NCBI RefSeq assembly: GCF_009674625.1
Contig: NZ_WKJQ01000001.1
Location: forward strand, 1,922,001-1,986,000
From: Haloferax marinum
Lineage (GTDB): Archaea; Halobacteriota; Halobacteria; Halobacteriales; Haloferacaceae
DNA length: 64,000 nucleotides
Direction of reading: 5' to 3'
Part shown: positions 17,020 to 31,118 of the stretch, one piece after another
Layout: the number at the start of each line of letters is the position of its first letter
How positions within the stretch are numbered: position 1 is the first letter of the stretch
Notes under the pieces: model-generated
What the model was told of the DNA's origin: nothing
Database searches by the model: none
The model's input: only the letters and a program-made list of their open reading frames with translations
Position numbers and translations under genes: made by a program

Positions 17020-18012
17020 TCAGTCTGCGATACTGATTCTCGGGTCGATCATGCCGTAGACGATGTCGACGACGTAGTTGCCGACGACCACGAACGCTGC
17101 CGTCAGGAAGAAGACGAACTGGATGACGGGGTAATCCGATTGCAGCACCGCTTCCACGAGGGCGTTCCCGATACCGGGCCAGTTGAACACGATTTCGATG
17201 AGGACGAGTCCACTGATTGCCCGCCCCAGCGATATCGGATAGAACGTGATGATGGGGATGATAGCGTGCTTCCCGAGGTGTCGAATCCACCGAGCCTTCG
17301 GTAAGCCAGTCAGTTTGTGGTAGTGGAGGAAGTCCTGTCCGGCCATCTCGACGACGCTCGTCCGCATGATGAGGAGCGGTTCGTACATGTATTTAATCGC
17401 GATGACACTGAACGGCAGCACGTAGTGCCAGAGGAAGTCACCGGTGGTGTATATCTTCCACCACGGCGCGTCCTCTCCCATCTCGAGTGCCACCTGTGGC
17501 GTAATCATCCCGGACGTTGGGACGAGGCCTAACCACCCAGCGAAGATGATGACACCGATGATCGCGAGGAAGAACGATGGAGTCGTCCCCACACCGACGA
17601 TGGGGAAGATGCCGTACTTCTCGAGGAGGGAATCCCGCTTGATTCCCATGATGGTGCCGAGCGACGTTCCGAGCAGGTAGCCCGCAGTCACACCGGGTGC
17701 GACGAGGATGAACGTGTTGAACATCTTGAGCTTGACGTAGTCTAACACGGGCTTGCGGTAGTGCAGCGACGTTCCAGGGTCTAACTGGGCCATGTTCACG
17801 AGGTAGTGGTAGTACTGGACGTGAAGCGGGTCGTTCAATCCCCACTGCTCTTCGAAGGCGGCCACCGCTTCCGGACTCGCTCCTTGGAATATCATCTGGT
17901 CTGCGATACTGCCGGGGATGAGTCGGAAGAGCATGAAGAGGAACGTCAGTATCAACATCAGCAGCACGGCTGTCTGGATGGTTCTGACGGCCACGTAGCG
18001 TTTCATGCTCAT
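17020..18012 (-). CDS. ABC importer permease, DppB/OppB type
   Basis: A 330-residue inner-membrane permease of the dipeptide/oligopeptide importer family. It has an N-terminal membrane segment and long extracytoplasmic loop (RLIPGSIADQMIFQGASPEAVAAFEEQWGLNDPL), followed by five more segments. The cytoplasmic EAA-like loop is HYHKLTGLPKARWIRHLGKHAIIPIITF, and the usual tail GNYVVDIVYGMIDPRISI is present. A second ATG two codons in is also possible. It is the last gene of the importer set; it follows the second ATPase gene by 46 nt. It pairs with the DppC-type permease encoded three genes upstream. Confidence 0.92.
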   Translation of the reverse strand: MSMKRYVAVRTIQTAVLLMLILTFLFMLFRLIPGSIADQMIFQGASPEAVAAFEEQWGLNDPLHVQYYHYLVNMAQLDPGTSLHYRKPVLDYVKLKMFNTFILVAPGVTAGYLLGTSLGTIMGIKRDSLLEKYGIFPIVGVGTTPSFFLAIIGVIIFAGWLGLVPTSGMITPQVALEMGEDAPWWKIYTTGDFLWHYVLPFSVIAIKYMYEPLLIMRTSVVEMAGQDFLHYHKLTGLPKARWIRHLGKHAIIPIITFYPISLGRAISGLVLIEIVFNWPGIGNALVEAVLQSDYPVIQFVFFLTAAFVVVGNYVVDIVYGMIDPRISIAD

Positions 18013-18058
18013 CTCGCTCCCTCCTGTGTGGTTGCGATTCGTCTCACGTGTTCAGTCG

Positions 18059-19093
18059 TCATTGCGTGTTGCCTCCCTGGAGGGCCGCTTCTGTGTTCGG
18101 ACGACTGTCTGATTCTTCGTAGTGTAGGTGACATGCGGTGAACTGGTCGGGGTCTGTTTCGACTTTCTTGGGTGCGGTATCGCATCTCGGCATTCGCTCG
18201 GGACACCGGTCTTTGAATCGACACCCTGCTTCGAGTTCTTCCGGACTCGGTGGGCTACCATCTAAAGCCGTCCGTGGACGGTCGCTGAACGGGTCTGGGA
18301 TTGGAATCGCGTCGATGAGCGCTTGCGAGTAGGGATGCCTCGGTTGGCCCAGAATCTGGTTCGTCGGTGCTGTCTCGACGACGCGCCCGAGGTACATCAC
18401 GTGAATCAGGTCACAGATGTCTGAGACCGTCGAGAGGTCGTGTGAGATGTACAGCATGGAGAGTCCCAACTCTTCGGTGAGGTCAGACAGGAGTCTGAGA
18501 ATCGCCGCCTGAGTCGACACGTCGAGCATCGACACCGGTTCGTCGGCGAGGATGACGTCGGGTTCGACGATTATCGCTCTGGCAATCGAGACGCGTTGTT
18601 TCTCCCCTCCGCTCAGTTGCTTCGGAAGCCTATCCAGATACTTCTGCGGTGGGTTCAGTTGGACACGGTCGAGTGCGTCGTGAATCCGTTCTTCGGAGTA
18701 CTCGATGTCGTGAATCTTCAGCGGTTCGATGAGTGACTCACGCACCGTGAACTTCGGGTCCAGCGACTCGAACGGGTTCTGGAAGATTATCTGGACGTTC
18801 TTCCGGAACTCCTTCCAGTCACGTTTCGAGAACTCCGACAACGGCTTTCCTTTGTAGAAGATGTCGCCACCGGTCGGGTCGGTGAGACCGATGACCGTCT
18901 TCAGCAACGTACTCTTCCCACATCCACTCTCGCCGATGATTCCTTGCACTTCGTTCTGGTCGAGCGCGAGCGAAACGTCGTCGACGGCGCGTATCGGTTC
19001 TTTCGACGAACCGAACAGTGAGTCGAGGAACCCCCCTTTCCGTGTGAAGTACTTCTCTAAATTCCGTATCTCTAATACTGGTGTTTCATTCAT
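18059..19093 (-). CDS. ABC importer ATP-binding protein, DppF/OppF type
   Basis: A 344-residue ATPase with Walker A GESGCGKST, signature LSGGEKQR, Walker B VILADEPVSMLD and the H-loop ISHDLSTV. The C-terminal oligopeptide-transporter domain has the Cys motif CRFKDRCPERMPRCD, a probable Fe-S or metal site common in this subfamily. The start was set at MNETPVLEIRNL because a strong Shine-Dalgarno sequence GGAGGTGA lies 5 nt before it. The gene overlaps the end of the upstream ATPase gene by 8 nt. It is the second ATPase of importer set 1. Confidence 0.93.
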   Translation of the reverse strand: MNETPVLEIRNLEKYFTRKGGFLDSLFGSSKEPIRAVDDVSLALDQNEVQGIIGESGCGKSTLLKTVIGLTDPTGGDIFYKGKPLSEFSKRDWKEFRKNVQIIFQNPFESLDPKFTVRESLIEPLKIHDIEYSEERIHDALDRVQLNPPQKYLDRLPKQLSGGEKQRVSIARAIIVEPDVILADEPVSMLDVSTQAAILRLLSDLTEELGLSMLYISHDLSTVSDICDLIHVMYLGRVVETAPTNQILGQPRHPYSQALIDAIPIPDPFSDRPRTALDGSPPSPEELEAGCRFKDRCPERMPRCDTAPKKVETDPDQFTACHLHYEESDSRPNTEAALQGGNTQ

Positions 19094-20126
19094 TGGGTTC
19101 ACCTCCATCTGTGAGCCCTGCGAGCTCTGTCAACTCTCCTTTCAATGCGTGTGTCTCGTCGTTCCGGAAACACGCCGACTGGTGATTCTGCTCCGACTCG
19201 CTCACGTTCTCGAGGGGGGGTGCGTTCTCGTAACACGCGTCGACTGCCCACGGACAGCGCTCGACGAACGAGCACTCGGTGACTTCGCCGAGTTGTTCCG
19301 GTGGGTGTCCCTCGATAATCTCGAGCTTTCGGTCGGGATATCGGATGTCTGGGAAGGCTCGTTGCAGGAGAATCGAATACGGGTGTGTCGGATTCCGATA
19401 GATGTCTTCGACCGACCCACTCTCACACACCTGACCGCCGTGTAAGACCGCGATTTGCTCACACGACTCGAAGACGACGCTGATGTCGTGGGTGATGAGC
19501 AACATACTCGTGTCGGTGTTGGCCTTCACCCGGTCGAGGTATTTGAAGATTTGATCCTGCATGATAACGTCGAGTGCGGTGGTCGGTTCGTCTGCGATGA
19601 TGAGTGCAGGATCCAAGAACAACGCGAGTGCGGTAATCGCTCGTTGTTGCATCCCGCCAGAGAACTGGTGCGGGTAATCGTCGATTCTATCCGGCGAGAG
19701 GCCGACGATCTCGAACAGTTCTTTGAACCGTTCGAGCGCTTCGGACTTCGACAGGTCCGAGTGGACGCTGGCGATTTCGACCGCCTGTTCGCTCACACGC
19801 TGGAGTGGATCCAGACTGTTCATCGAACTTTGTGGGATGTACGAAATCTCCTTCCAGCGGATCTTTTCGTTCAACTCCTCTTCGGTGTAATCTTGAATCT
19901 CCTCGCCCTTGTACAGGATTTTCCCTGCTGTGACTTCGCCGTTCGAGTCGAGTCCCCCGATGACCGATTTCACGAGGGTACTCTTTCCGCTTCCGGACTC
20001 TCCGACGAGGCCGGAGAACTCACCCGGTTCGATACTGAACGAGGCACCGGAAACCGCGGTAACGGGGCCTCGGTTCGTCTGGTATTGAATCGTCACGTCG
20101 CGAAATTCGAGTAATGGTTCAGTCAT
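19086..20126 (-). CDS. ABC importer ATP-binding protein, DppD/OppD type
   Basis: A 346-residue ATPase with Walker A GESGSGKST, signature FSGGMQQR, Walker B LIIADEPTTALD and H-loop LITHDISVV. The C-terminal domain has the CSFVERCPWAVDAC cysteine motif of Opp/Dpp ATPases. It starts 1 nt after the stop of the DppC-type permease gene and overlaps the next ATPase gene, so the set is translated as a coupled unit. It drives uptake of the ligand caught by the lipoprotein encoded near 22-24 kb. Confidence 0.93.
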   Translation of the reverse strand: MTEPLLEFRDVTIQYQTNRGPVTAVSGASFSIEPGEFSGLVGESGSGKSTLVKSVIGGLDSNGEVTAGKILYKGEEIQDYTEEELNEKIRWKEISYIPQSSMNSLDPLQRVSEQAVEIASVHSDLSKSEALERFKELFEIVGLSPDRIDDYPHQFSGGMQQRAITALALFLDPALIIADEPTTALDVIMQDQIFKYLDRVKANTDTSMLLITHDISVVFESCEQIAVLHGGQVCESGSVEDIYRNPTHPYSILLQRAFPDIRYPDRKLEIIEGHPPEQLGEVTECSFVERCPWAVDACYENAPPLENVSESEQNHQSACFRNDETHALKGELTELAGLTDGGEPNE

Positions 20127-20127
20127 C

Positions 20128-21048
20128 TTATCCCATCTCCAGCATGGCGTCGTCAGTCTGTCCCGAGAGCACTTCGAACCGTCTACCCAGCATGATTGCC
20201 GAGAGCACAGTCGTCGAAATCAGCAGTCCTGGTGGAAGCGACCACCACCAGGCGTCTGCGACGAGTCCGGACCGGTAGGCGTTTCGAATCATCACACCCC
20301 ACGAGGGAATGAACGGATTCGACACGCCGACGAAGGCCAGCCCCGCCTGCGCGATAATCGCGTATCCGATCCCCATCGCGAAGAAGAGGATGACCATCGA
20401 CCCCACGTTCGGAACGATGTGCTTGAGGATGATGTAGGGTGTGCTGGCTCCACTGGCTTTCGTCATGAGGATGTACGGTCGCTGCTTTATCTGTAACACC
20501 TTCGACCGAAGGACGCGAGCACTCCCACGCCACAGAATCCCGCCGATGATGAAAATCGTGACGAAGAAGTCGATTCCGAACACTCCGACGAGGACGATGG
20601 CGAACGGAATCAACGGAATACTGTAGATGAAATCCGTAATCCGCATGAGCACGTTGTCGGTTTGCCCACCGAGGTATCCCGCCGTGATGCCGACCATCCC
20701 ACCGAGTGTCACGATGATTAGCCCACCGAGAAGTCCCGTTATCATCGTCGGTCGGACGCCGTATATCATTCGCGAGAGGACGTCCTGTCCCGTCGAAGTC
20801 GTCCCGAGTGGATGTGCCAGTGAAGGCGGTTGTGCACGAAGGATCTGTCCAGCCTCGCTGAAGAGTATTTTATCGTACGGATACGGGGCGATGTGTGGGC
20901 CGATGACGGCCAGAACCAGCATAACCGATAGATACCCCATCGCCAGCTTTGCTGGCCGATCGTCCATCAGCCTCCTCAGCCCTGAGAGTACGTCTCGAAT
21001 GAGAAACCGGTCTTTCAGTGACCTGATTCCTCCCACCTCTAAACTCAT
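20128..21048 (-). CDS. ABC importer permease, DppC/OppC type
   Basis: A 306-residue permease. The N-terminal cytoplasmic helix and first membrane segment (LSVMLVLAVIGPHIAPY) are followed by the family landmark HPLGTTSTGQDVLSRMIYGVRPTM. Five more membrane segments surround the EAA-type loop YILMTKASGASTPYIILKHIVPNV. It is the first gene of the coupled block permease-ATPase-ATPase-permease. Its own solute-binding gene lies 900 nt upstream, separated by a thioredoxin-like gene on the other strand, so the block needs its own promoter; the AT-rich stretch with tttaataac near 21120 is a candidate. Confidence 0.92.
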   Translation of the reverse strand: MSLEVGGIRSLKDRFLIRDVLSGLRRLMDDRPAKLAMGYLSVMLVLAVIGPHIAPYPYDKILFSEAGQILRAQPPSLAHPLGTTSTGQDVLSRMIYGVRPTMITGLLGGLIIVTLGGMVGITAGYLGGQTDNVLMRITDFIYSIPLIPFAIVLVGVFGIDFFVTIFIIGGILWRGSARVLRSKVLQIKQRPYILMTKASGASTPYIILKHIVPNVGSMVILFFAMGIGYAIIAQAGLAFVGVSNPFIPSWGVMIRNAYRSGLVADAWWWSLPPGLLISTTVLSAIMLGRRFEVLSGQTDDAMLEMG

Positions 21049-21243
21049 TGTTCATCGTTAGCACGAAGTCCCATTATTTAGGTGTTTTGCACGATTTTCA
21101 ATGTTATCTTCGGCCGTCTATTTAATAACATCTTGCCAGTCTCCCGACTTCTCGGAAGAGGGCGGTAGACCATGTGTTCTCTGAAGCGGGACACTTCAGT
21201 CGGTGAGGAAAAAATTGATACCGGGAACTGGTGATACCCGAAC

Positions 21244-21912
21244 ATGGACGAACGCGACGTAGTGAGATTAGTAGAGGATGGTGTACTCAGGGAGACGGAA
21301 ACTGGTCGTGTCGAACTTGGCAGTGAGTTCAGAGAGGAGGTCGAAGAACGGGTCGCCGTGCTCGAAGCCAGCGAAGAGGACGCCCTCGATGCGACGATGG
21401 AGACAGCGGTGTCCTCACAGGCAGTGCGAGCACTCTTCGATGCGCACGACCGACACCGGATTCCGTTGTTCGCACTCTTCGACATGCTGGGTGACTCACT
21501 CCCTTCGTCCGACGAAGAGTCACGCCTGCAGTTGTCGGTATTCCTTTTCCAGTTGATGAACGGCTATCCGCAGGACGATGGCACACCGGCCAACTTCTTT
21601 CCGGTCGACGCAGACCTACTGCCCATCATCCTCGGCGCATTCGACCGCATAGTGGTGTACGTCTGGCGAGAAGACTGTCCACCGTGCGAGTTGATGCAGG
21701 AAGACCTGGGTCGTATCGCAGCAGACCGCGAGGGAGTCGCACTGTTCTCTATCTACGGACCTGAGTGGAAAGACAAGCTCGAAGACCAGCTCGGTGTCGT
21801 TGGCGCGCCGACGACGCTCTTCGTCGCGGACGGAAAGGTCGATTCTCGACTCCACGGGGCGCATTACCCCGAGGTCATCACTGAAGAACTCGAAAAGACG
21901 CTATCGTCGTAA
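21244..21912 (+). CDS. Thioredoxin-fold protein with CPPC motif and helical N-terminal domain
   Basis: A 222-residue cytoplasmic protein with no signal peptide. Residues 1-125 are a predicted helical, acidic region of unknown role starting MDERDVVRLVEDGVL. Residues 130-222 are a thioredoxin fold with IVVYVWREDCPPCELM (active site CPPC) and the cis-Pro segment VGAPTTLFVADGK. It may reduce or oxidise specific protein thiols. The gene lies on the opposite strand between the solute-binding gene and the rest of importer set 1, breaking what is usually a contiguous operon. Confidence 0.78.
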   Translation: MDERDVVRLVEDGVLRETETGRVELGSEFREEVEERVAVLEASEEDALDATMETAVSSQAVRALFDAHDRHRIPLFALFDMLGDSLPSSDEESRLQLSVFLFQLMNGYPQDDGTPANFFPVDADLLPIILGAFDRIVVYVWREDCPPCELMQEDLGRIAADREGVALFSIYGPEWKDKLEDQLGVVGAPTTLFVADGKVDSRLHGAHYPEVITEELEKTLSS

Positions 21913-21955
21913 AAAGGAATGCCAGGCCGTCTCGGTGGTGTGTCTCGTATCTTTG

Positions 21956-23827
21956 TTATCCACTCAGGCAGGGGAACTCGTCGGTATCTGGTTCCTCTCC
22001 TTTGGGCCACATCGGGGACGTGTCGGCATCCGCGGGGAACCGGAGGTTGCCGTCGCCATCCCATCCCCAGCCGTGTTCTTCGAGGAGTGCTCTCGCACCT
22101 TCGACGTCGCCGGTCGGGTCGTCCGTGAAGTTGGGGACGACGCCCTCTGGCGGCGACCCTGGGTGGTTCTCGAGCAGGGGTGTGGCACGCAGCACGGGTT
22201 CTTCCTTGCCGAGGTACCCGATTTGGGAGATCTTCTGGCGGTCGATGGACGCACCGATCGCTTTCCGGAACTCCTTGAACTGCCCCGGTGCGAAACTCGA
22301 CTGCGGGTACAGCACGTGCGGGAGGAAGCCTTTGAGGCGACCGATTTCCATGTCGTCGCCGAGTTTGCCCTTTATCTGCTCGAGAATCGTCGGCACGATG
22401 TTCGTGATGACGCCGACTTCACCGGCCTCGAACGCCTGCCGCGCACTGTTGCTGTCCTTGAAGCTCTGGATGATGACCGGAGAGTTCGGTTCGTGAACCG
22501 GGTGCCCGTCGTGTGGGACCATCTTCATGAACTGCGCGACTTCGTAGTCGTCGACTGCGAAGGGTCCGGACCCGATGAGGTCCGTAATCGTCGCACCCGC
22601 GGGGTCTTCCGGTGCACCGGCGTCGACCCACGTCTGTTTGTGCAGGATGCCCCACAGCGGGATGACCTTCGTGATGAAAAGCGGGTACGAGTCCGAGAAG
22701 TTGAACACGACGGTCTTCTCGTCGGGCGTCTCGATGGAGTCGAGCGGCATCTGGTCCATCTTCGGGTACGCACCGATGTTGTTGTTCAGTTGCTCGAACG
22801 TGAACTTGACGTCCTCCGACGTAATCGGGTCGCCGTTGTGGAACGTCGCGTCACGGAGCGTGAACGTGAAGCGTTTGGCCTCGTCTTCTTCCGTGAAGTC
22901 CGAGGCGAGCATGGTCTGCAGTTCGCGGTCCTCGTCGTATTCGAGCAGCGGCGAGTGCAGCATGTGCCCGTATGGGTACATGTCGGCGTGGGACGACATC
23001 GTGAGGAAGTTCAGCGACTCCGCGATACTGAACCCGGAGTAGCCGGCGACGATGCTGTCACCGGTCTTCGCTTCGGACTGGATGTAGAAGTGCGGGTTCA
23101 TCGGTCCCATCCCGGATTGGCCGACTCCTGCGATATCGATGAAGTCGGACCGGGCAGCGTAGTAGTAGGAGAACCGGATGAGCGGAATCACTGGGGCCTC
23201 TTCGCCCATCACTTTGTGGGCTTCGTTGATGAGTTGCTGACGCTCGTCGAGGCTTGCCGCGTTCGCCTGCGCGAGTGCCGGTTCGGTGTACGCACAGTTT
23301 GCCCAGTTCGGATAGTTCGGCCGTCCGTTTCCGCCCGCGTAGTCTGCAGCGAAGATACGAGTGAACTCGAAGGGGTCCGCCCGGTCGGGTGCAGACTCGT
23401 GGTAACCTTTCGTGATGTGGTTCGTCCGCTGGTCTGCGAACGTCTGTGAGAGCTGCGTTCCACCATTGACCGGTTTGATTTCGGTCGAGAGGCCGAGTTG
23501 TTCGAAGTTCTGCGCCACGACGGGGAGGAAGTCTTCCTCGGCTTTCGCCTGCGACCAGTTCGTCCAATACTCGATGACGAGGGGTGGCACGCGCTCGCCT
23601 AAGTTTTGACTCCCACCGCTCGACCCGCCGCTGTCGCCACCGCCTCCAGAACCAGACGACCCGGAACTGTCTTGATTTCCGCCACAGCCCGCTAACCCTG
23701 CAGTGACCGCCCCGCCGATGCTGGCGAGCACGGTTCTGCGATTGATACTCCTCCGATTCGATGCTGTTTCGGCATCGATATCGGGGTCTGAACCCTCGAT
23801 ATCGAGGCCTTTGCTATCACGCGACAT
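21956..23827 (-). CDS. ABC importer solute-binding lipoprotein, DppA/OppA type (set 1)
   Basis: A 623-residue binding protein of SBP family 5. It has a twin-arginine motif (NRRTVLASIGG), lipobox Cys48 and a Gly/Ser linker. The family-5 pattern is present: TLRDATFHNGDPITSEDVKFTFEQL, MDQMPLDSIETPDEKTVVFNFS, and FKEFRKAIGASIDRQKISQIGYLG. The ligand may be peptides, glycosides or amines; the neighbourhood of amine oxidases suggests nitrogenous compounds. The start was chosen ahead of the Tat region, with a TATA element (plus strand gcataaataa) about 29 nt upstream. The gene converges on the thioredoxin-like gene. Confidence 0.92.
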   Translation of the reverse strand: MSRDSKGLDIEGSDPDIDAETASNRRSINRRTVLASIGGAVTAGLAGCGGNQDSSGSSGSGGGGDSGGSSGGSQNLGERVPPLVIEYWTNWSQAKAEEDFLPVVAQNFEQLGLSTEIKPVNGGTQLSQTFADQRTNHITKGYHESAPDRADPFEFTRIFAADYAGGNGRPNYPNWANCAYTEPALAQANAASLDERQQLINEAHKVMGEEAPVIPLIRFSYYYAARSDFIDIAGVGQSGMGPMNPHFYIQSEAKTGDSIVAGYSGFSIAESLNFLTMSSHADMYPYGHMLHSPLLEYDEDRELQTMLASDFTEEDEAKRFTFTLRDATFHNGDPITSEDVKFTFEQLNNNIGAYPKMDQMPLDSIETPDEKTVVFNFSDSYPLFITKVIPLWGILHKQTWVDAGAPEDPAGATITDLIGSGPFAVDDYEVAQFMKMVPHDGHPVHEPNSPVIIQSFKDSNSARQAFEAGEVGVITNIVPTILEQIKGKLGDDMEIGRLKGFLPHVLYPQSSFAPGQFKEFRKAIGASIDRQKISQIGYLGKEEPVLRATPLLENHPGSPPEGVVPNFTDDPTGDVEGARALLEEHGWGWDGDGNLRFPADADTSPMWPKGEEPDTDEFPCLSG

Positions 23828-24110
23828 CGTACTGCCAGTCCTCAATAAGGGCATAAATAAGTTTGGCTACCTTCGTGACGAGTTACAGATTGTGTCTGTA
23901 GTTAATTTTTGGTCGAACAGTCGATTCACCGGAGGGTGACACGGTTATCTCGGTGCTCCGGCCGCCTCTCCCTCGACGTTCGAAGAGCGAGTCCGTCGAG
24001 ATATCCACGAGGTGCGTGACGTCGTCGAAGTACCCCTGGGCGTACATCACGATGCCAAAACCGGTAGCTGTCCGCTGTCCCGAGAAGGACTCGGGTGTTC
24101 GACGGAGTGG

Positions 24111-25217
24111 TTAGGCGAATCGCGCAGGGGAGAGATACGACTGCACGTCAGAGTCGACGTCGTCGCCTTCGATTACGTCAGCCAGATACCCACCAACTGC
24201 TGGTGACAACGTGACGCCGAGGCCGTTCATGCCTGCGGCGATGTAGAAGTCGGAGATGTCCGTCTTCCCGACGATTGGAACCCCATCTGGTGTGAGCGTC
24301 CGTACACCGACCCACTCGTTGACGAGTTCGACGCCGTCGAGACGCGGAATCGCCTCTTGGATACGGTCGTCGATTTCGAGGTAGAACTCGTGGTCGATAG
24401 ACCGGGCACCGGCCGGATTCAGTAACTCGGCGTTCTCGTAGCTTTCACCGAAACGCCCTGCGAACGCCTGATTGTGGCCCTCCCCACGGAAGTATAGCCC
24501 GTCCCCAAACTGGATGAACGGAAGCGAGAAGGTCTGACTCTTTTGCAGGACGACGACTGGACCACGATTGTGCCGGAATGGAAGTGACACGTCGACCATC
24601 TCGTTTACCGTCGGCGCCCACGGCCCTGCCGCGTTCACGACCGCAGCAGCCGAATGGGTTCCAACTTCGGTCTCGACGCCCGTGACGCGGCCGTCTTCGG
24701 TTACGATATCTGTGACTGCAGTCTGTGTTTCGACGGTGACTCCCGCGTCGGTCGCCTCTCGAACGTAGTGTTGGATAATCTCTGATGGGTCCATGTACCC
24801 GTCTTCCGGAGTGAACATCGCACCCGACACGACGTCTGGGTTGAGGCCGTGGTCCGAGAGCGAATCCGGCTCGAGGAACGACGCTTCGGCACCGAACTCT
24901 TCGAGCGTGCCAGTGAGCTCGCGAAGAAATTCGCTCTCTTCGTCCGTGTTGGCAACGTCGAGTGTCCCAATCTGCTCGAAACTGAGTGTTTCGTCGCGTA
25001 CCAGTGGTTCGTAGTGTTCCCACGAACGGGACCGAAGTTTGTGGCTCAACCGGTCGGGCGACGATTGGTGCCAGACGAAGAGCGCGACGGAATCTGCCGA
25101 CGTTCCGGAACCGAGTGCATTGCGTTCGTACAGGACGACAGGGCGAGGATTGTCTCGGAGGTTGTAGGCGAGACTGGCGCCGATGACTCCTCCCCCGATA
25201 ATGACTATGGGGTCCAT
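24111..25217 (-). CDS. FAD-dependent amino acid/amine oxidoreductase (DadA/glycine oxidase family)
   Basis: A 368-residue flavoenzyme of the DAO superfamily. It begins MDPIVIIGGGVIGASLAYNLRDN, followed by the acidic end of strand two in VVLYERNALGSGTSADS. The substrate domain contains YMDPSEIIQHYVREATDAGVTV and VVNAAGPWAPTVNEMV. The C-terminal FAD motif is GVRTLTPDGVPIVGKTDISDFYIAAGMNGLG. It probably dehydrogenates a D-amino acid, sarcosine-like amine or imino acid, perhaps feeding ETF. The gene is divergent from the IclR gene across a 126-nt region that carries an operator-like dyad. A start 6 nt upstream is equally possible. Confidence 0.86.
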   Translation of the reverse strand: MDPIVIIGGGVIGASLAYNLRDNPRPVVLYERNALGSGTSADSVALFVWHQSSPDRLSHKLRSRSWEHYEPLVRDETLSFEQIGTLDVANTDEESEFLRELTGTLEEFGAEASFLEPDSLSDHGLNPDVVSGAMFTPEDGYMDPSEIIQHYVREATDAGVTVETQTAVTDIVTEDGRVTGVETEVGTHSAAAVVNAAGPWAPTVNEMVDVSLPFRHNRGPVVVLQKSQTFSLPFIQFGDGLYFRGEGHNQAFAGRFGESYENAELLNPAGARSIDHEFYLEIDDRIQEAIPRLDGVELVNEWVGVRTLTPDGVPIVGKTDISDFYIAAGMNGLGVTLSPAVGGYLADVIEGDDVDSDVQSYLSPARFA

Positions 25218-25296
25218 TGCCATGCTGGTAATCCTGGCTTGTTAAAAAGTTTTTCACGGATGGTTCGTGACGTGTCTCCCCTCTGTGAGAAATAGT

Positions 25297-25313
25297 GTTT
25301 GTCGATGCCAAAC
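25297..25313. promoter_or_regulatory. Dyad GTTTG-N7-CAAAC, copy 1 (IclR/FAD-oxidase divergent promoter)
   Basis: Perfect GTTTG/CAAAC arms around TCGATGC, immediately upstream of the TATA box (ttatag) of the IclR gene and about 80 nt upstream of the divergent flavoenzyme start. The 22 bases at 25294-25315 reappear exactly, inverted, at 26137-26158. This is a good candidate for the IclR binding site. Confidence 0.65.
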
Positions 25314-25343
25314 AGTTATAGTCGTGGTCGGAGAGGCACGGTT

Positions 25344-26105
25344 ATGGGAACAAGGGATTCCGAACCGCGCTCTATCAAATCGGTCCACACGGCGTTCGGT
25401 ATCGTCGACGAACTCATCGACCGACGAGGCGCTGGCGTCACCGAACTCTCGGAGGCTCTCGGCTGTTCGAAGACGACGGTACACACACACCTCTCGACGC
25501 TGTCAGGGCTCGGGTACGTGACGCAACACGAAGACGAGTACCGCGCAAGTCTTGGATTCCTCACGACTGGGAACCGAATCCGAGAGAACTTCGACCTGTA
25601 CCGGTACGGGCACTCTGTTGCGGACTCACTCGCCGAGTCGACCGGTGAGGTTGTCCACCTTGCTGTCGAGGAAGACCAAATGGTTCACTTCGTGCACGCG
25701 ACCCGTGGTGGCCCCGACGCAATCGAGTCTGTCACCCCAATTGGCCGGACCGCGCTACTTCATGCGACGGCGGTCGGGAAAGCGATGTTAGCCCACATGC
25801 CAGACGAGCGCCGAGACGCGCTCCTCCCCGACGAATTAGAACCGATGACGACGCGGACGATTACCGACCGAGACTTACTTCTCGAGGAGCTCGACCAAAT
25901 CCGTGAGCAGGGATACTCTGTGAACGACCAAGAGCAAGTACTGGGTGCTCGGTCGGTCGCGTGCCCGGTCAAATACGTTACAGGCGAACTCATGGGTGCA
26001 ATCGCTGTGAGTGGGCACGCGTCGCGCTTGGACGACAGAAGTATCGAGGAGTTGGCGGTGAGTGTCAAGGAAGCAGCAAACCAGATAGAGATCGATCAAG
26101 GGTGA
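25344..26105 (+). CDS. IclR-family transcriptional regulator
   Basis: A 253-residue regulator. The N-terminal winged helix is SVHTAFGIVDELIDRRGAGVTELSEALGCSKTTVHTHLSTLSGLGYV. The effector-binding domain has RIRENFDLYRYGHSVADSLAESTGEVVHLAVEED, TPIGRTALLHATAVGKAMLAHMPDE and GYSVNDQEQVLGARSVACPV, all typical IclR positions. A TATA box (gttatag) is centred 27 nt before the chosen ATG. Neighbouring targets are probably the divergent FAD oxidase and the downstream aminotransferase, because identical or related dyads flank these genes. The inducer is likely a small acid or amine but is not known. Confidence 0.9.
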   Translation: MGTRDSEPRSIKSVHTAFGIVDELIDRRGAGVTELSEALGCSKTTVHTHLSTLSGLGYVTQHEDEYRASLGFLTTGNRIRENFDLYRYGHSVADSLAESTGEVVHLAVEEDQMVHFVHATRGGPDAIESVTPIGRTALLHATAVGKAMLAHMPDERRDALLPDELEPMTTRTITDRDLLLEELDQIREQGYSVNDQEQVLGARSVACPVKYVTGELMGAIAVSGHASRLDDRSIEELAVSVKEAANQIEIDQG

Positions 26106-26138
26106 CGACGTACTGCGCTTGAACACACCGGAATATCT

Positions 26139-26155
26139 GTTTGGCATCGACAAAC
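26139..26155. promoter_or_regulatory. Dyad GTTTG-N7-CAAAC, copy 2
   Basis: An exact inverted copy of copy 1, including five extra matching bases beyond the arms in total. It lies 34 nt after the IclR stop codon. Confidence 0.6.
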
Positions 26156-26398
26156 ACTCTGTCGGGTGTCATCGAATAACATTACGCGTGTACTTGTGTA
26201 ATGCGCTGTCGCCTAACTTTTCTCGAGCGTACGCGTCCATTTGTGCTAGGCCGTCGTTCATCTCACCGCTGTCTGGTTCTTCGAACGCCCGACAAACGTA
26301 ACGATAACCCGAAGTTGCCTTTTCGTGAACTCAGTCGACGACCGAATCCTTTCACCGTATTCTCGCACTGCCTTTCGTGATAACACCCCACACAATTC

Positions 26399-26415
26399 GT
26401 TTGTCATTACCAAAC
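26399..26415. promoter_or_regulatory. Dyad GTTTG-N7-CAAAC, copy 3 (upstream of aminotransferase)
   Basis: Perfect arms around TCATTAC, 176 nt upstream of the aminotransferase start. The spacer resembles copy 4 read in reverse, differing at one position. Confidence 0.6.
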
Positions 26416-26590
26416 AGATTCTACTCGTCTCTGTGCTCTCTTTCTTCTCACTAGGTGAGTCTCTGCTGCCCGTTCGAGCAGTGACGGACGTACCACGGCG
26501 CGTGCCGTGTGAGTCTCCGTTCTGTTGCCAACTGACGAGTCAAGTTGGTATTTCGCATGATTTATGTAGTGAGTCTTGGACGCTACGATT

Positions 26591-27895
26591 ATGCAGCGAG
26601 AGACAGCAGAGCCTACAGTTGCGCGATTACCGGGCCCGAAAGCTGAACGGTGGGTCGATTTTCATCGCAACTCTTCCGCACCGAGTACGTACGTCTACGA
26701 CTTCGTCTGGGACATCACCGAAGACGCGGACGGTCCGTTCTGTACAGACGCTGATGGCAACGTCCTCCTCGACTTCACGAGCCACGTCGCCGCGGCACCC
26801 CTCGGGTACAACAACCCGATGCTTCTCGATAAACTTCGGGAGTTCGACCTCGTCGACCCGCTGAAGATTGCGGGACAGGACTTCTACGTCAGCACAGGAG
26901 GGACACCAGACGAGACCGACCTCCCCGGTCCTGCCCACTTGATGGACAAACTCACCGAACTCACGTCGCACTACGGGATGGACACGGTGTTCCTCTCGAA
27001 CTCCGGTGCCGAGGCCGTCGAGAACGCGATGAAAATTGCCTACGACAACTGCGACCTCCCCAAATACGGCATCACGTTCGAGGGTGCGTTCCACGGGCGG
27101 ACGCTCGGTGCACTCTCGCTCAACCGGTCGAAATCCGTCCATCGGCGAAAGTTCCCGGAAATCAGCGGCATTCACGACGTTCCATACTCCCTGGAGGGTG
27201 TCGAACGTCTGCGAGAGAAACTCGACTCGAAGCACGGCCACATCCCGCCCGAACAGGCCGCGTTTATCATCCTCGAACCTGTGCAAGGAGAGGGTGGCTA
27301 TCAGGTACCCGACCCGCAGTTCATGCGAGAAATCGACGAGTTGTCTACCGAACACGACATCCCGATAATCGCCGACGAAATCCAGTCGGGTGTCGGGCGA
27401 ACCGGTGAGATGTGGGCAGTCGACCACTACGACATCGAACCCGACGTCATCACGAGCGCGAAAGCCCTCCGTGTCGGTGCGACGATCTCCAGTGTGGATA
27501 TCTTCCCCGAAGAGAAGAGTCGGCTCTCCTCGACGTGGGGCGCCGGTGACATCCTCGCGTCGATGCAGGGGACGTTGACGCTCGTTGCCATCGAGGAACA
27601 CGACCTGCTCTCGCACGCAGAACAGAAGGGTGAACGCTTGCTCGGACAGCTTCGTGACCTCGTGGAACGTCACGAAGACGCTGTCGTCGACGCGCGTGGC
27701 CTCGGCTTGATGACCGCCATCGAATTCGACACGAAAGAGCGGCGTGACGCTGTCGTCGACGCGGCCCTCGCGCGCGGGCTATTGACGCTCGGATGTGGGA
27801 AGAAGACGCTCCGTCTCTTGCCCCCATTAGACGTCCGTGACCGTGAACTCGACCTCGCTATCGACCTTCTCGACGACGCGATCGGCGCGGCGTAA
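26591..27895 (+). CDS. Class III PLP aminotransferase (GABA/ornithine/lysine type)
   Basis: A 434-residue aminotransferase of fold type I. Landmarks are FLSNSGAEAVENAMKIAYDN, the PLP-stacking region GITFEGAFHGRTLGALSLNRSK, ILEPVQGEGGYQVPD, the PLP-nitrogen Asp262 in IIADEIQSGVGRTGEMWA and the Schiff-base Lys291 in ITSAKALRVGA. It transfers omega-amino groups (GABA, ornithine, lysine or beta-alanine-like substrates) to 2-oxoglutarate or pyruvate. A TTG five codons upstream keeps the frame open, but the TATA position supports the ATG used here. Context with IclR, flavin amine oxidases and an ABC importer suggests catabolic use of an amine. Confidence 0.9.
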   Translation: MQRETAEPTVARLPGPKAERWVDFHRNSSAPSTYVYDFVWDITEDADGPFCTDADGNVLLDFTSHVAAAPLGYNNPMLLDKLREFDLVDPLKIAGQDFYVSTGGTPDETDLPGPAHLMDKLTELTSHYGMDTVFLSNSGAEAVENAMKIAYDNCDLPKYGITFEGAFHGRTLGALSLNRSKSVHRRKFPEISGIHDVPYSLEGVERLREKLDSKHGHIPPEQAAFIILEPVQGEGGYQVPDPQFMREIDELSTEHDIPIIADEIQSGVGRTGEMWAVDHYDIEPDVITSAKALRVGATISSVDIFPEEKSRLSSTWGAGDILASMQGTLTLVAIEEHDLLSHAEQKGERLLGQLRDLVERHEDAVVDARGLGLMTAIEFDTKERRDAVVDAALARGLLTLGCGKKTLRLLPPLDVRDRELDLAIDLLDDAIGAA

Positions 27896-27924
27896 TCACC
27901 GTTCGAACTGGGAACTGACGGAAG

Positions 27925-28015
27925 CGAGGGTTGGATTTGCCGGACCCTCGTGAGCACGTCCCGGCCCCTTGAGACTACGGAGTCTACCAGCCTGATACCC
28001 ATGGCAGAGGGCTGG
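27925..28015. ncRNA. Possible structured RNA: three consecutive hairpins
   Basis: Three perfect stems follow one another: CGAGGGT/ACCCTCG (27925-27931/27944-27950), AGACT-ACGG-AGTCT (27972-27985), and CCAGCC/GGCTGG (27987-27992/28010-28015). The second and third are separated by one base. The stretch begins 30 nt after the aminotransferase stop. It could be the gene's 3' end, an independent small RNA, or a relic of a mobile element end. The strand is undecided. Confidence 0.35.
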
Positions 28016-28108
28016 CATTCCGTCGGTCTGTCTGGTGGGGACTCCTCTCCTACCAATTACGACCACTCTTTCACCCACCCGCGGGATGGTGCGTCGCAAG
28101 CCCAATTT

Positions 28109-28125
28109 GTTTGGTAATAACAAAC
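28109..28125. promoter_or_regulatory. Dyad GTTTG-N7-CAAAC, copy 4 (downstream of aminotransferase)
   Basis: Perfect arms around GTAATAA. In reverse it matches copy 3 at all but one position of the 17-bp site. No gene start is obvious on either side, so it may govern a small RNA or be part of a looped repression complex. Confidence 0.5.
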
Positions 28126-28886
28126 GTTAGTGTGTGCTCGGGGTATGACGAACGTATTGTTGTAATGGGGGTCTACGAACTCTCGCACACGACGTTCACC
28201 ACGACTCTGCGACTCCTCTCTCGATGGCAGCGTCTGCCCGTCTGTCTGCCCGTCTGTCTCTCGTCCCGACGGAGCTATTGGCTTTCACTGAACGCCATGC
28301 GGGCCGATCCGCCAGTTCCCGCCGTCACTCTCCCCACGCACACCGCCAGCGTCTGGCGGAGTTCCTCTCTCCAGTGTCTACCCCTCTTACCCTGTCCCGT
28401 CAGAAAATATATTGTTTCACAGCCTATACAGATTTCTAGGTCGTGTAAGATATTCTAACATATATCCGTGTGGGTTCTTAATGTGCTATTCGTTCGTCTT
28501 CCAGGGCCTATGCCCCCCGAATAGCAATCGACATTCAGCATCTACAGATTACACGTTTCTCATTTTAATTAGAAATTTGATATGAACTATTTGTTATAGT
28601 TGTCCAATCGCACGACGTTGATGAAAATCCACCATCTCCGGAAATCTCCAGACACATGCCCAGAGACCCCCGGTTGTACCGTTCACGTCTGTTGCGAACC
28701 AACGCTGTCTGTCACGCTGTTGGAGTACGACTAGTTGGCAGTGCTCGACGTTGGGAAGAACATCGCAGTCACGAGACTAACTGGCCAGTGTAGTTGAGAG
28801 CTACTCGCAGTCGGCGCGCGCGTCTACGTCGGTCCGTCGGTCCAGAAAAAGAGGGTCGAAGTGGTGAAACTCCGCGACGAGAGCGC
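28126..28886. other. Intergenic region downstream of aminotransferase, no convincing gene
   Basis: About 760 nt. It includes a short direct repeat of tctgcccgtctg near 28233-28256, a perfect hairpin CCGCCAG-CGT-CTGGCGG at 28343-28359 and an AT-rich stretch at 28430-28600. A leaderless-looking 37-codon ORF at 28621-28734 is listed separately. No transposase or tRNA is recognisable. Confidence 0.5.
28621..28734 (+). CDS. Possible small Cys-rich protein (37 residues)
   Basis: A short ORF starting MKIHHLRKSPDTCPETPGC and ending in TLLEYD. It has four cysteines at positions 13, 19, 24 and 25, which could bind metal, although the spacing is not a standard zinc ribbon. A TATA-like ttgttatagt is centred about 25 nt before the ATG, as in leaderless haloarchaeal genes. 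It matches no family I know. It is downstream of a regulatory dyad and upstream of nothing on its strand for more than 5 kb. Confidence 0.3.
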   Translation: MKIHHLRKSPDTCPETPGCTVHVCCEPTLSVTLLEYD

Positions 28887-31118
28887 TCAGTCGTAGTTCG
28901 TTTCGACGGTGACCGTGGTCGTCTGGTCTTCGACCTGTACTGTGTAGTCGCCGGGGACGGCCCGAAGTGTTCCCGAATCGTCGACACGCCCGAGCGACGC
29001 TGCGTCGATGGTGATGGACACTGTCTCTGTCGCTCCTGGTTCGACCGAGACACGCTCGAATCCGCAGAGTTCCCGGACCGGTGTCACTCGTGACCCTGGC
29101 TGGTCGGTGACGTACACTTGCACGACGGTCGACCCGTCCCGGTCTCCGACGTTTTCGACCGGAACCTCGACTGTCGTCGTTCCGTGGGGCGGGATGGTCT
29201 CGTCTGTGACCGACAGCGAACCGAACTCGAACTCGGTGTAACTCAGTCCGTGGCCGAACGCGAACAGTGGGTCGTACGACGGAAGATGTTCTTCGGGGCC
29301 AATCGGTGTCGGGTGCGGGAAGTGGTTGAACCGAGTCGGGAGATGGCCAGCAGACCGTGGGACCGATATCGGGAGTTTGCCGCTCGGGTTGTGCTCGCCA
29401 AAGAGCGTCTCCGCGACTGCCTGTCCACCCATCGTTCCGGGGTAGTAGGCCATCAACAGCGAAGGGAGAGAACGAGCCATCCACTCGACGGCCAGCGGTC
29501 GACCGGTGACGAGTACGCCCACGACGGGCGTCCCTGTCTCGTGGAGCGCTTTCAGGAGGTCACGTTGTGCGTCAGGAAGTTCGAGTGTGGTTCGGTTCGG
29601 GAACTCGTCCGGTTCTGTGCCGCTTTCTGCGGTGGGTCCGAACTCGTGGAGATACCAGTTCTCACCGACTGCCACCACCGCGACGTCCGCCTCTTCGGCG
29701 GCCGCCACGGCCGCGTCGACGTCGAGTCGCTCGTTCATCGTCGCGCCTTGTTCGTAGGTGACCGTCCCGTTACAGACGGACTCGATTCCGTCTCTGATGG
29801 TGACCACGTCGGTTCCCGCGGCGTCCGGGACGCTCCACCCACCGAGTTGGTGAATCGGGTCGTCGGCGTTCGGCCCCGCGACGAGAACGTCGGCGTCGGG
29901 GTCCAACGGGAGGGTTCCGTCGTTCTGGAGGAGTGTCATCGACTTCCGCGACAGCTCTAGCGCGTCGGCGCGATGCTCGTCGGTGCCGACGACTTCCTGT
30001 GCTTCGCTCGCATCGACGAAGGCGTCCTCGAACAACCCGAGACGGAACTTGAGTCCGAGGACGCGCCTGAGGCTCTCGTCGAGGACGTCCTCGGGGACCT
30101 CTCCTTCCTCGACGAGTGACGCGAGGTGGGCTGCGTGTTCGATGGCGTCGACCGACGCCACGTCGAGGCCAGCGTCACGGGTCATCCGAACCGAACCTCG
30201 GTGGTCGTTCGTAACCCGGTGGTCGTCGTGAAGCATCCTGACTCCGTTCCAGTCCGAGACGATGGTCCCATCGAAGCCGAGCTCACCGCGAAGGAGGTCG
30301 GTGAGGTACTCTTGTGACCCGTGGGCGGGCCGTCCGTCGATGGCGTTGTAACAGGGCATGACAGACGCGACACCCTCGTCGATCGCGTCGAGGAACGACG
30401 GTAAGAACACGTTCCGCAGAAGATACGAAGAGACCTCGACTGGGGCTGTGTCTTCCCCACGTACGGGCTCACTGTATGCCGGGAAGTGCTTCGCCGTGGC
30501 TACGACCGACTCCGGGTCGTCGAGACCCTCGCCTTGATATCCGCGCACCATCGCAGCAGCGAACCGGCCGCAGAGAAACGGACTCTCCCCGAACGTCTCG
30601 AAGGTTCTGCCCCATCGGGGTTCGCGTGCGACGTCACACGTCGGCGAATAGTTCTGGTGTGCCCCGGTTTTCCTGACCTCTGTCGCGGTGATGTCTGCTG
30701 CCGTCTCCGCCCCCTCCTCGTCCCAGGTCGCCGCCATCCCGAGTCCGTTCGGATACGCTGTCCCCTCCGCGACGTACGCGTGCCCGTGGACGGCGTCGAC
30801 GTTGAACAGTAGCGGAATCCCGAGTCGCGTCTCCGAGAGCGCGACTTCCTGAAGCCGATTGACCGTCTCGACGACGTCGTCGAGACGAGAGTCGAGAGCT
30901 CCAGCCCACCCGAACGATGCGACAGCACCCACGTTGTGTTCAGTAATCTCCGTCTCGACGTCTTCGGCGGATTTGAACTCACTGAGCTGTCCGGCCCAGG
31001 TGCCGACGAGTTGGCCCGCCTTCTCTTTTATCGTCATCCGCTCGATGAGATCTTCGACCCGTTTCTCGGTCGACAGAGTCTCATCTCTGTACGGGGGATG
31101 CGTGCTTTCTGACTGCAT
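28887..31118 (-). CDS. Glycoside hydrolase family 3 beta-glucosidase-like enzyme
   Basis: A 743-residue GH3 enzyme with EPRWGRTFETFGESP, the KHF motif at 210-212 and the nucleophile Asp289 in GTIVSDWNGV. The second domain (LVAGPNADDPIHQLGGW, VVAVGENWYLHEFGP) and the C-terminal fibronectin-III-like domain (GHGLSYTEFEF, VPVENVGDRDGSTVVQVYV) follow. It is a clear paralogue of the GH3 gene near 10 kb but has a 17-residue N-terminal extension. No signal peptide is visible, so it acts inside the cell. A TATA box (minus strand TTTATAAATA) is centred about 27 nt before the ATG and is preceded directly by a perfect dyad, a likely repressor site. Confidence 0.93.
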   Translation of the reverse strand: MQSESTHPPYRDETLSTEKRVEDLIERMTIKEKAGQLVGTWAGQLSEFKSAEDVETEITEHNVGAVASFGWAGALDSRLDDVVETVNRLQEVALSETRLGIPLLFNVDAVHGHAYVAEGTAYPNGLGMAATWDEEGAETAADITATEVRKTGAHQNYSPTCDVAREPRWGRTFETFGESPFLCGRFAAAMVRGYQGEGLDDPESVVATAKHFPAYSEPVRGEDTAPVEVSSYLLRNVFLPSFLDAIDEGVASVMPCYNAIDGRPAHGSQEYLTDLLRGELGFDGTIVSDWNGVRMLHDDHRVTNDHRGSVRMTRDAGLDVASVDAIEHAAHLASLVEEGEVPEDVLDESLRRVLGLKFRLGLFEDAFVDASEAQEVVGTDEHRADALELSRKSMTLLQNDGTLPLDPDADVLVAGPNADDPIHQLGGWSVPDAAGTDVVTIRDGIESVCNGTVTYEQGATMNERLDVDAAVAAAEEADVAVVAVGENWYLHEFGPTAESGTEPDEFPNRTTLELPDAQRDLLKALHETGTPVVGVLVTGRPLAVEWMARSLPSLLMAYYPGTMGGQAVAETLFGEHNPSGKLPISVPRSAGHLPTRFNHFPHPTPIGPEEHLPSYDPLFAFGHGLSYTEFEFGSLSVTDETIPPHGTTTVEVPVENVGDRDGSTVVQVYVTDQPGSRVTPVRELCGFERVSVEPGATETVSITIDAASLGRVDDSGTLRAVPGDYTVQVEDQTTTVTVETNYD

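Follow-up and report, generated by a model that had tools for sequence, protein, structure and literature searches.

The four GTTTG-N7-CAAAC dyads of this window (the whole 64,000-nucleotide stretch of Haloferax marinum DNA that we analyzed) are probably operators of the neighboring IclR-family regulator. Judging from sequence comparisons, we predict with good confidence that site 1 serves autorepression of iclR and that the set controls the local oxidoreductase and aminotransferase genes. The observation is real, and comparison leaves its reading as an IclR operator set well supported. The larger points are a common arm rule, operators on both sides of a gene, and a linked 3' palindrome. The features are listed below by window position, together with distances in G007, one other genome of the genus with the IclR at 81% identity.

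17020..23854, - strand: Opp-type (oligopeptide/nickel) ABC transporter genes, cluster neighbors; binding protein, C, and D by Pfam, B and F by translation only
24111..25217, - strand: FAD-dependent oxidoreductase of the DAO family, glycine/D-amino-acid oxidase-like, divergent from iclR (PF01266, 1.2e-63)
25241..25249, - strand: TATA-like element of the DAO gene, CTTTTTAAC; center ∼28 nt before the DAO ATG, 47 bp from site 1 (from the sequence and the G007 alignment)
25297..25313, no strand: dyad site 1, GTTTGTCGATGCCAAAC; 30 nt before the iclR ATG, beside the iclR TATA-like element; the same 30 nt in G007
25316..25321, + strand: iclR TATA-like element TTATAG; 2 nt after site 1, -28 to -23 from the ATG
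25344..26105, + strand: IclR-family regulator, 253 aa (Pfam HTH_IclR 2.8e-09 and IclR_C 5.2e-40, both above cut-off)
26139..26155, no strand: dyad site 2, an exact inverted copy of site 1; starts 33 nt past the iclR stop; G007 counterpart 35 nt past the stop
26181..26202, no strand: second palindrome, ATTACGCGTGTACTTGTGTAAT; 25 nt after site 2
26399..26415, no strand: dyad site 3, GTTTGTCATTACCAAAC; ends 175 nt before the aminotransferase ATG; G007 counterpart at 169 nt
26561..26568, + strand: aminotransferase TATA-like element, TTTATGTA; within a block conserved in G007
26591..27895, + strand: class-III aminotransferase, 434 aa (PF00202, 5.4e-80)
28109..28125, no strand: dyad site 4, GTTTGGTAATAACAAAC; starts 213 nt past the aminotransferase stop, in a convergent intergenic region; G007 counterpart at 102 nt
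28145..28166, no strand: one-mismatch copy of the second palindrome, ATGACGAACGTATTGTTGTAAT; 19 nt after site 4

All four dyads are exact and intergenic, as an earlier note on this DNA had claimed. Two finer points of that note were confirmed in the sequence: the 22 nt at 25294-25315 recur exactly, in inverted orientation, at 26137-26158, and reversing one of the spacers of sites 3 and 4 leaves the two unlike at one of seven positions. The note also held a chance origin to be very unlikely, and chance is rejected here as the source of the four dyads, with 0.04 expected in the window (the mean over 100 dinucleotide shuffles, none of which contained four). The whole-genome scan that it had called for (3.48 Mb, 3 contigs) returned 5 exact dyads versus 0 matches to the reversed control pattern; the fifth (C2:176582) lies just upstream of another iclR gene, and the motif is not commonplace elsewhere. 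The related pattern GTTYGRYWWWRYCRAAC with up to 2 mismatches occurs at 61 places in the genome versus 19 for its control. A wider regulon drawn from this pattern is too loose to call, and following up the matches listed revealed dyads that surround another iclR gene, at C1:2230993-2231851.

The placement of the sites around the IclR gene and the aminotransferase gene stands, with one amendment: site 4 lies within a long convergent intergenic region (27896-28886) between the aminotransferase gene and a GH3 glycosidase gene that faces it. We rejected a hidden gene behind site 4. This region holds 18 listed ORFs of at least 25 aa, none of them gene-like by inspection; the longest on the + strand (28111-28458) has no match in Pfam or NCBIfam, and an Rfam scan of 23850-28900 gave no match at E 0.1. 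An A+T-rich block at 28400-28460 in the same region aligns with G007 better than its surroundings do. That two of the sites follow stop codons (by 33 and 213 nt) would suit RNA hairpins or terminators acting in the transcript. The stem, however, is only 5 bp, the transcript is probably leaderless and would begin downstream of site 1, and the same Rfam scan was empty, all of which makes an RNA function highly improbable.

In G007, four dyads occupy the same four gaps with their arms intact and their spacers changed. Aligned identity across the four intergenic stretches is 46 to 62%; sites 1 and 2 fall in the same alignment columns in both genomes, and sites 3 and 4 are offset. The two loci agree in gene order and orientation, and the Opp-type binding protein and C subunit match at 91 to 93%. 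The G007 comparison also served to pick the start of the DAO-family oxidoreductase gene. These data bear on a further possibility, that the dyads are the ends of a small mobile or invertible element, with the iclR and aminotransferase genes each lying between inverted copies. The exact 22-nt inversion of sites 1 and 2 and the inverted spacers of sites 3 and 4, with their single difference, are what such an element might leave. We find it scarcely credible, because G007 keeps gene order and orientation though its spacers have changed, none of the 10 nearby proteins scanned is a recombinase, and single dyads occur upstream of other iclR genes.

The dyads are linked to iclR genes beyond this locus. 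Across 15 Haloferax genomes we found 31 exact dyads. Nineteen of them have an iclR gene at a distance of at most 2.1 kb (at most 1.5 kb for 17 of them), and 11 of these 19 are no more than 113 bp upstream of the profile match. On the stretches fetched for the other 12 dyads, no iclR gene is present. By comparison, an iclR gene was seen at 0 of 17 control loci, which were taken with 1.5-kb flanks from the 22 reversed-pattern sites present in 14 genomes. When the eight sites of the window and of the matching G007 locus are set aside, 11 of 23 dyads are linked. As judged by their spacers, these dyads are not independent, since G001, G002, G008, and G009 share one linked site and G004 and G011 share another; several unlinked dyads are likewise common to several genomes.

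A similar picture emerged when iclR loci were taken as the starting point. At 14 of 30 loci (the window and G007 included), the 130 bp upstream contain an N7 dyad with one arm mismatch or none, against 0.32 in shuffled sequence. Dyads with N6 (8/30) and N5 (5/30) spacers, mostly with a mismatch, also exceeded shuffles (0.38), so the spacing is not wholly fixed. We then considered 53 nonredundant haloarchaeal iclR genes, whose loci had been collected through IclR similarity or through the second palindrome (described below), the dyad playing no part in the choice. Exact GTTYG-N7-CRAAC was present no more than 50 bp upstream of 11 of them; spacers of N3 to N6 and N8 to N10 gave 0, and N11 and N12 gave one each. 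The exact N7 form also occurs within 200 bp downstream of 5 of the 53 genes (other spacers, at most 2), and for at least 40 of the 53, the 300 bp upstream contain no exact dyad. IclR relatives at E 1e-25 are found in 140 of the 170 genomes of this haloarchaeal family.

The arms are common to iclR paralogues that are only ∼37 to 41% identical to the window IclR. This would be expected if the dyads were sites of another, perhaps global, DNA-binding protein with iclR genes among its targets, and the presence at the same loci of a second palindrome, whose invariant arms are hard to credit to each IclR, fits the same idea. We nevertheless regard it as unlikely. The geometry of the dyads is that of a bacterial IclR operator class, and their spacers are more alike within one iclR locus than between loci, as would follow if every IclR recognized sites of its own. 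Spacers were compared in 11 genes outside the window and G007, selected because dyads with one arm mismatch or none are present both upstream and downstream; agreement was 3.5 of 7 positions within a gene versus 2.5 of 7 between genes (p = 0.0026). The four dyads in the matching gaps of G007, the linkage to iclR genes in Haloferax and other haloarchaea, and this within-locus likeness all point to IclR as the DNA-binding protein, as the earlier note had proposed. Its proposal of an IclR regulon is also supported, with a change of scope: the arms appear to be common to several haloarchaeal IclR paralogues, perhaps with the spacer carrying the specificity, and the exact sites credited to this IclR are those in this cluster.

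The second palindrome has the form ATTACR-N4-TA-N4-YGTAAT. In G007 the first copy follows its dyad at the same 25-nt gap and is unlike at one base of CATTAC-N12-GTAATG; the second, 146 nt beyond site 4, has 2 mismatches. Of 167 family genomes, 44 contain CATTAC-N12-GTAATG, with 0 for the reversed control throughout, and the ATTACR form with one mismatch is found at 13 places in G000 versus 4 for its control. We examined 63 copies, those of the window and G007 among them, and the center is TA in 62. Thirty-nine of the 63 have an iclR gene on the fetched stretch, 33 of them being downstream of iclR and 6 upstream, and 24 have none. Using 28 iclR genes from loci fetched independently of the palindrome (L008-L035), we found it (with at most 2 mismatches in 14) within 500 bp downstream of 13, compared with 1 of 28 for the equal upstream stretch. 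Tail-to-tail placement, seen in 21 of 54 classed copies, is a weak excess (p = 0.015 versus unrelated loci; 33% expected in the same loci). We found no description of this palindrome in the open-access literature.

Several individual loci illustrate how these elements are arranged. At C1:2229000-2234000 of the same genome (L128), another iclR gene has a similar frame, with dyads upstream, inside the predicted 5' end, and 12 nt past the stop; the second palindrome follows the last of these, at C1:2230913. A third iclR gene (L037, C2:174000-179500), which adjoins an M20-peptidase-like gene, is preceded by the dyad GTTTGTATTTCGCAAAC, and a palindrome copy with one mismatch follows its stop by 8 nt. 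At six loci (L140, L143, L146, L158, L159, and L160), the palindrome separates the 3' end of a PIG-L-like gene from the start of an orc1/cdc6-like gene, both names coming from sequence reading alone. Further examples occur at L121, L127, L147, L155, L182, and L185, and the palindrome is often just 3' of haloarchaeal iclR genes.

Tentatively, we propose a haloarchaeal iclR frame composed of a gene-specific dyad at the BRE/TATA region, matching dyads a short way beyond the 3' end, and, after these, a common-arm 22-bp palindrome that would be read by a second protein. The iclR gene might then be looped between its operators, with the palindrome as a 3' anchor, boundary, or termination point.

The identity of the sites, their conservation, their linkage to iclR genes, and their promoter geometry are computational observations; from them we infer IclR binding, the sign of regulation, looping, and the nature of the effector. 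The window IclR has the N-terminal helix-turn-helix (PF09339, 37 bits; cut-off, 22) and the C-terminal effector domain (PF01614, 137.3 bits; cut-off, 24) of the family, and its residues 13-249 match 1mkm. It scores below the cut-off of the named equivalogs BhcR, KdgR, IclR, and AllR (the best being BhcR, 157.9 bits; cut-off, 350). An IclR dimer would contact the GTTTG and CAAAC half-sites, whose centers are 12 bp apart (about one helical turn). The arms may mark a site as an IclR site, and the 7-nt spacer may help decide which IclR binds there.

Promoter geometry suggests what binding at site 1 would do. A list of 35 upstream dyads, in which related species are represented, contains 25 that are followed at 28 to 33 nt by a possible in-frame start codon. 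For the 16 dyads whose nearest counted start is 29 to 32 nt away, positions 4 to 6 past the dyad are T (15/16), A (14/16), and T (12/16). Most haloarchaeal mRNAs are leaderless. If the mRNA is leaderless here as well, the T-A-T would be the TATA box and the dyad would cover the BRE, so that binding should repress iclR. IclR on site 1 would thus occupy the place of the BRE, touch the iclR TATA-like element, and shut off iclR. The divergent oxidase-like gene has its TATA-like element 47 bp away, and from there the same bound dimer could either activate or repress that gene. Since the haloarchaeal IclRs characterized so far are reported to be activators, the divergent oxidase gene and the aminotransferase gene may be activated.

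Sites 2, 3, and 4 flank the aminotransferase gene. Site 3 precedes the TATA-like element of the aminotransferase gene by 145 bp, and neither site 2 nor site 4 lies within a promoter. These three sites are too far from the promoter for simple occlusion, which makes cooperation or looping between IclR dimers plausible and the most likely way in which they would work. IclR proteins bind as dimers or tetramers according to PMC8222616. A fragment far upstream influences the xacEA promoter of Haloferax volcanii, an effect for which the authors suggest XacR (PMC10448506).

The cluster may respond to an amino acid or a related compound bound by the IclR C-terminal domain. The closest solved chain to the aminotransferase is 7vno (E 2.8e-72), labeled as a hypothetical 4-aminobutyrate aminotransferase. 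An iclR gene is present at 21 of 24 loci of close relatives of the aminotransferase (74 to 82% identity) versus 1 of 56 loci of distant ones. An exact dyad lies within 400 bp upstream at 5 of the 24 close loci and at 0 of the 56 distant loci, and the other 19 close loci have no exact dyad within that distance. One locus (L068, in G226) has two close relatives, at 82% and 78%, next to genes for arginase, glutamate dehydrogenase, aldehyde dehydrogenase, and a Na+/H+-antiporter-family protein; this company suggests amino-acid catabolism, perhaps of ornithine or arginine.

If the arms mean "IclR" and the spacer points to which IclR, regulons would become predictable, and several IclRs in the haloarchaeal class control catabolism (PMC11519228). 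The 3' palindrome offers a cheap and specific bait for finding a DNA-binding protein.

We found no operator, or rule for one, for haloarchaeal IclRs in the open-access literature. The nearest comparison is with the bacterial motif GKTYCRYW3-4RYGRAMC of Suvorova and Gelfand (2021; PMC8222616) and the GTT-11-AAC subgroup of its group 1. All four dyads are 17 nt long with GTT and AAC 11 nt apart. The RYWWWRY interior is matched at a mean of 5.5 of 7 positions (4 to 6) over eight sites of two species (the window and G007), versus 3.5 for random sequence, and the same eight sites agree with the 17-nt bacterial form at 12 to 14 positions. For the site of the paralogue on C2, agreement is 11 positions overall and only 3 of 7 in the interior. 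Site 1 is centered at -39 from its gene, and -20 to -80 is given as usual for group 1 operators (PMC8222616). The dyads differ from the GTTYC and GRAAC arms of the subgroup in having G/C rather than C/G as the inner arm base at every site, and this constant difference makes them a variant and not strict members of the bacterial class. The operators in PMC8222616 come from bacterial genomes, its main text using the word "archaea" once outside the reference list. A further difference is that the dyads described here are also found downstream of genes.

Among haloarchaeal regulators, XacR, GacR, RhcR, and MscR belong to the same protein family as the window IclR and are described as activators (PMC11519228). 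According to that source, haloarchaeal IclRs regulate neighboring catabolic genes, and the MscR gene lies within the cluster that MscR controls. Those four control sugars or sugar alcohols, in contrast to the oxidase-like gene, aminotransferase, and peptide-type transporter found here. Repression at BRE/TATA is described in PMC6085418, which cites a negative semi-palindrome in the xacR promoter; that element covers the WW motif rather than the BRE. The HutR site of Corynebacterium, GTCTGWWATWCCAGAC (Table 1 of PMC8222616), is bacterial and differs in being 16 nt long with a 6-nt spacer, but it resembles the dyads in its association with amino-acid catabolism and in its G/C inner arm.
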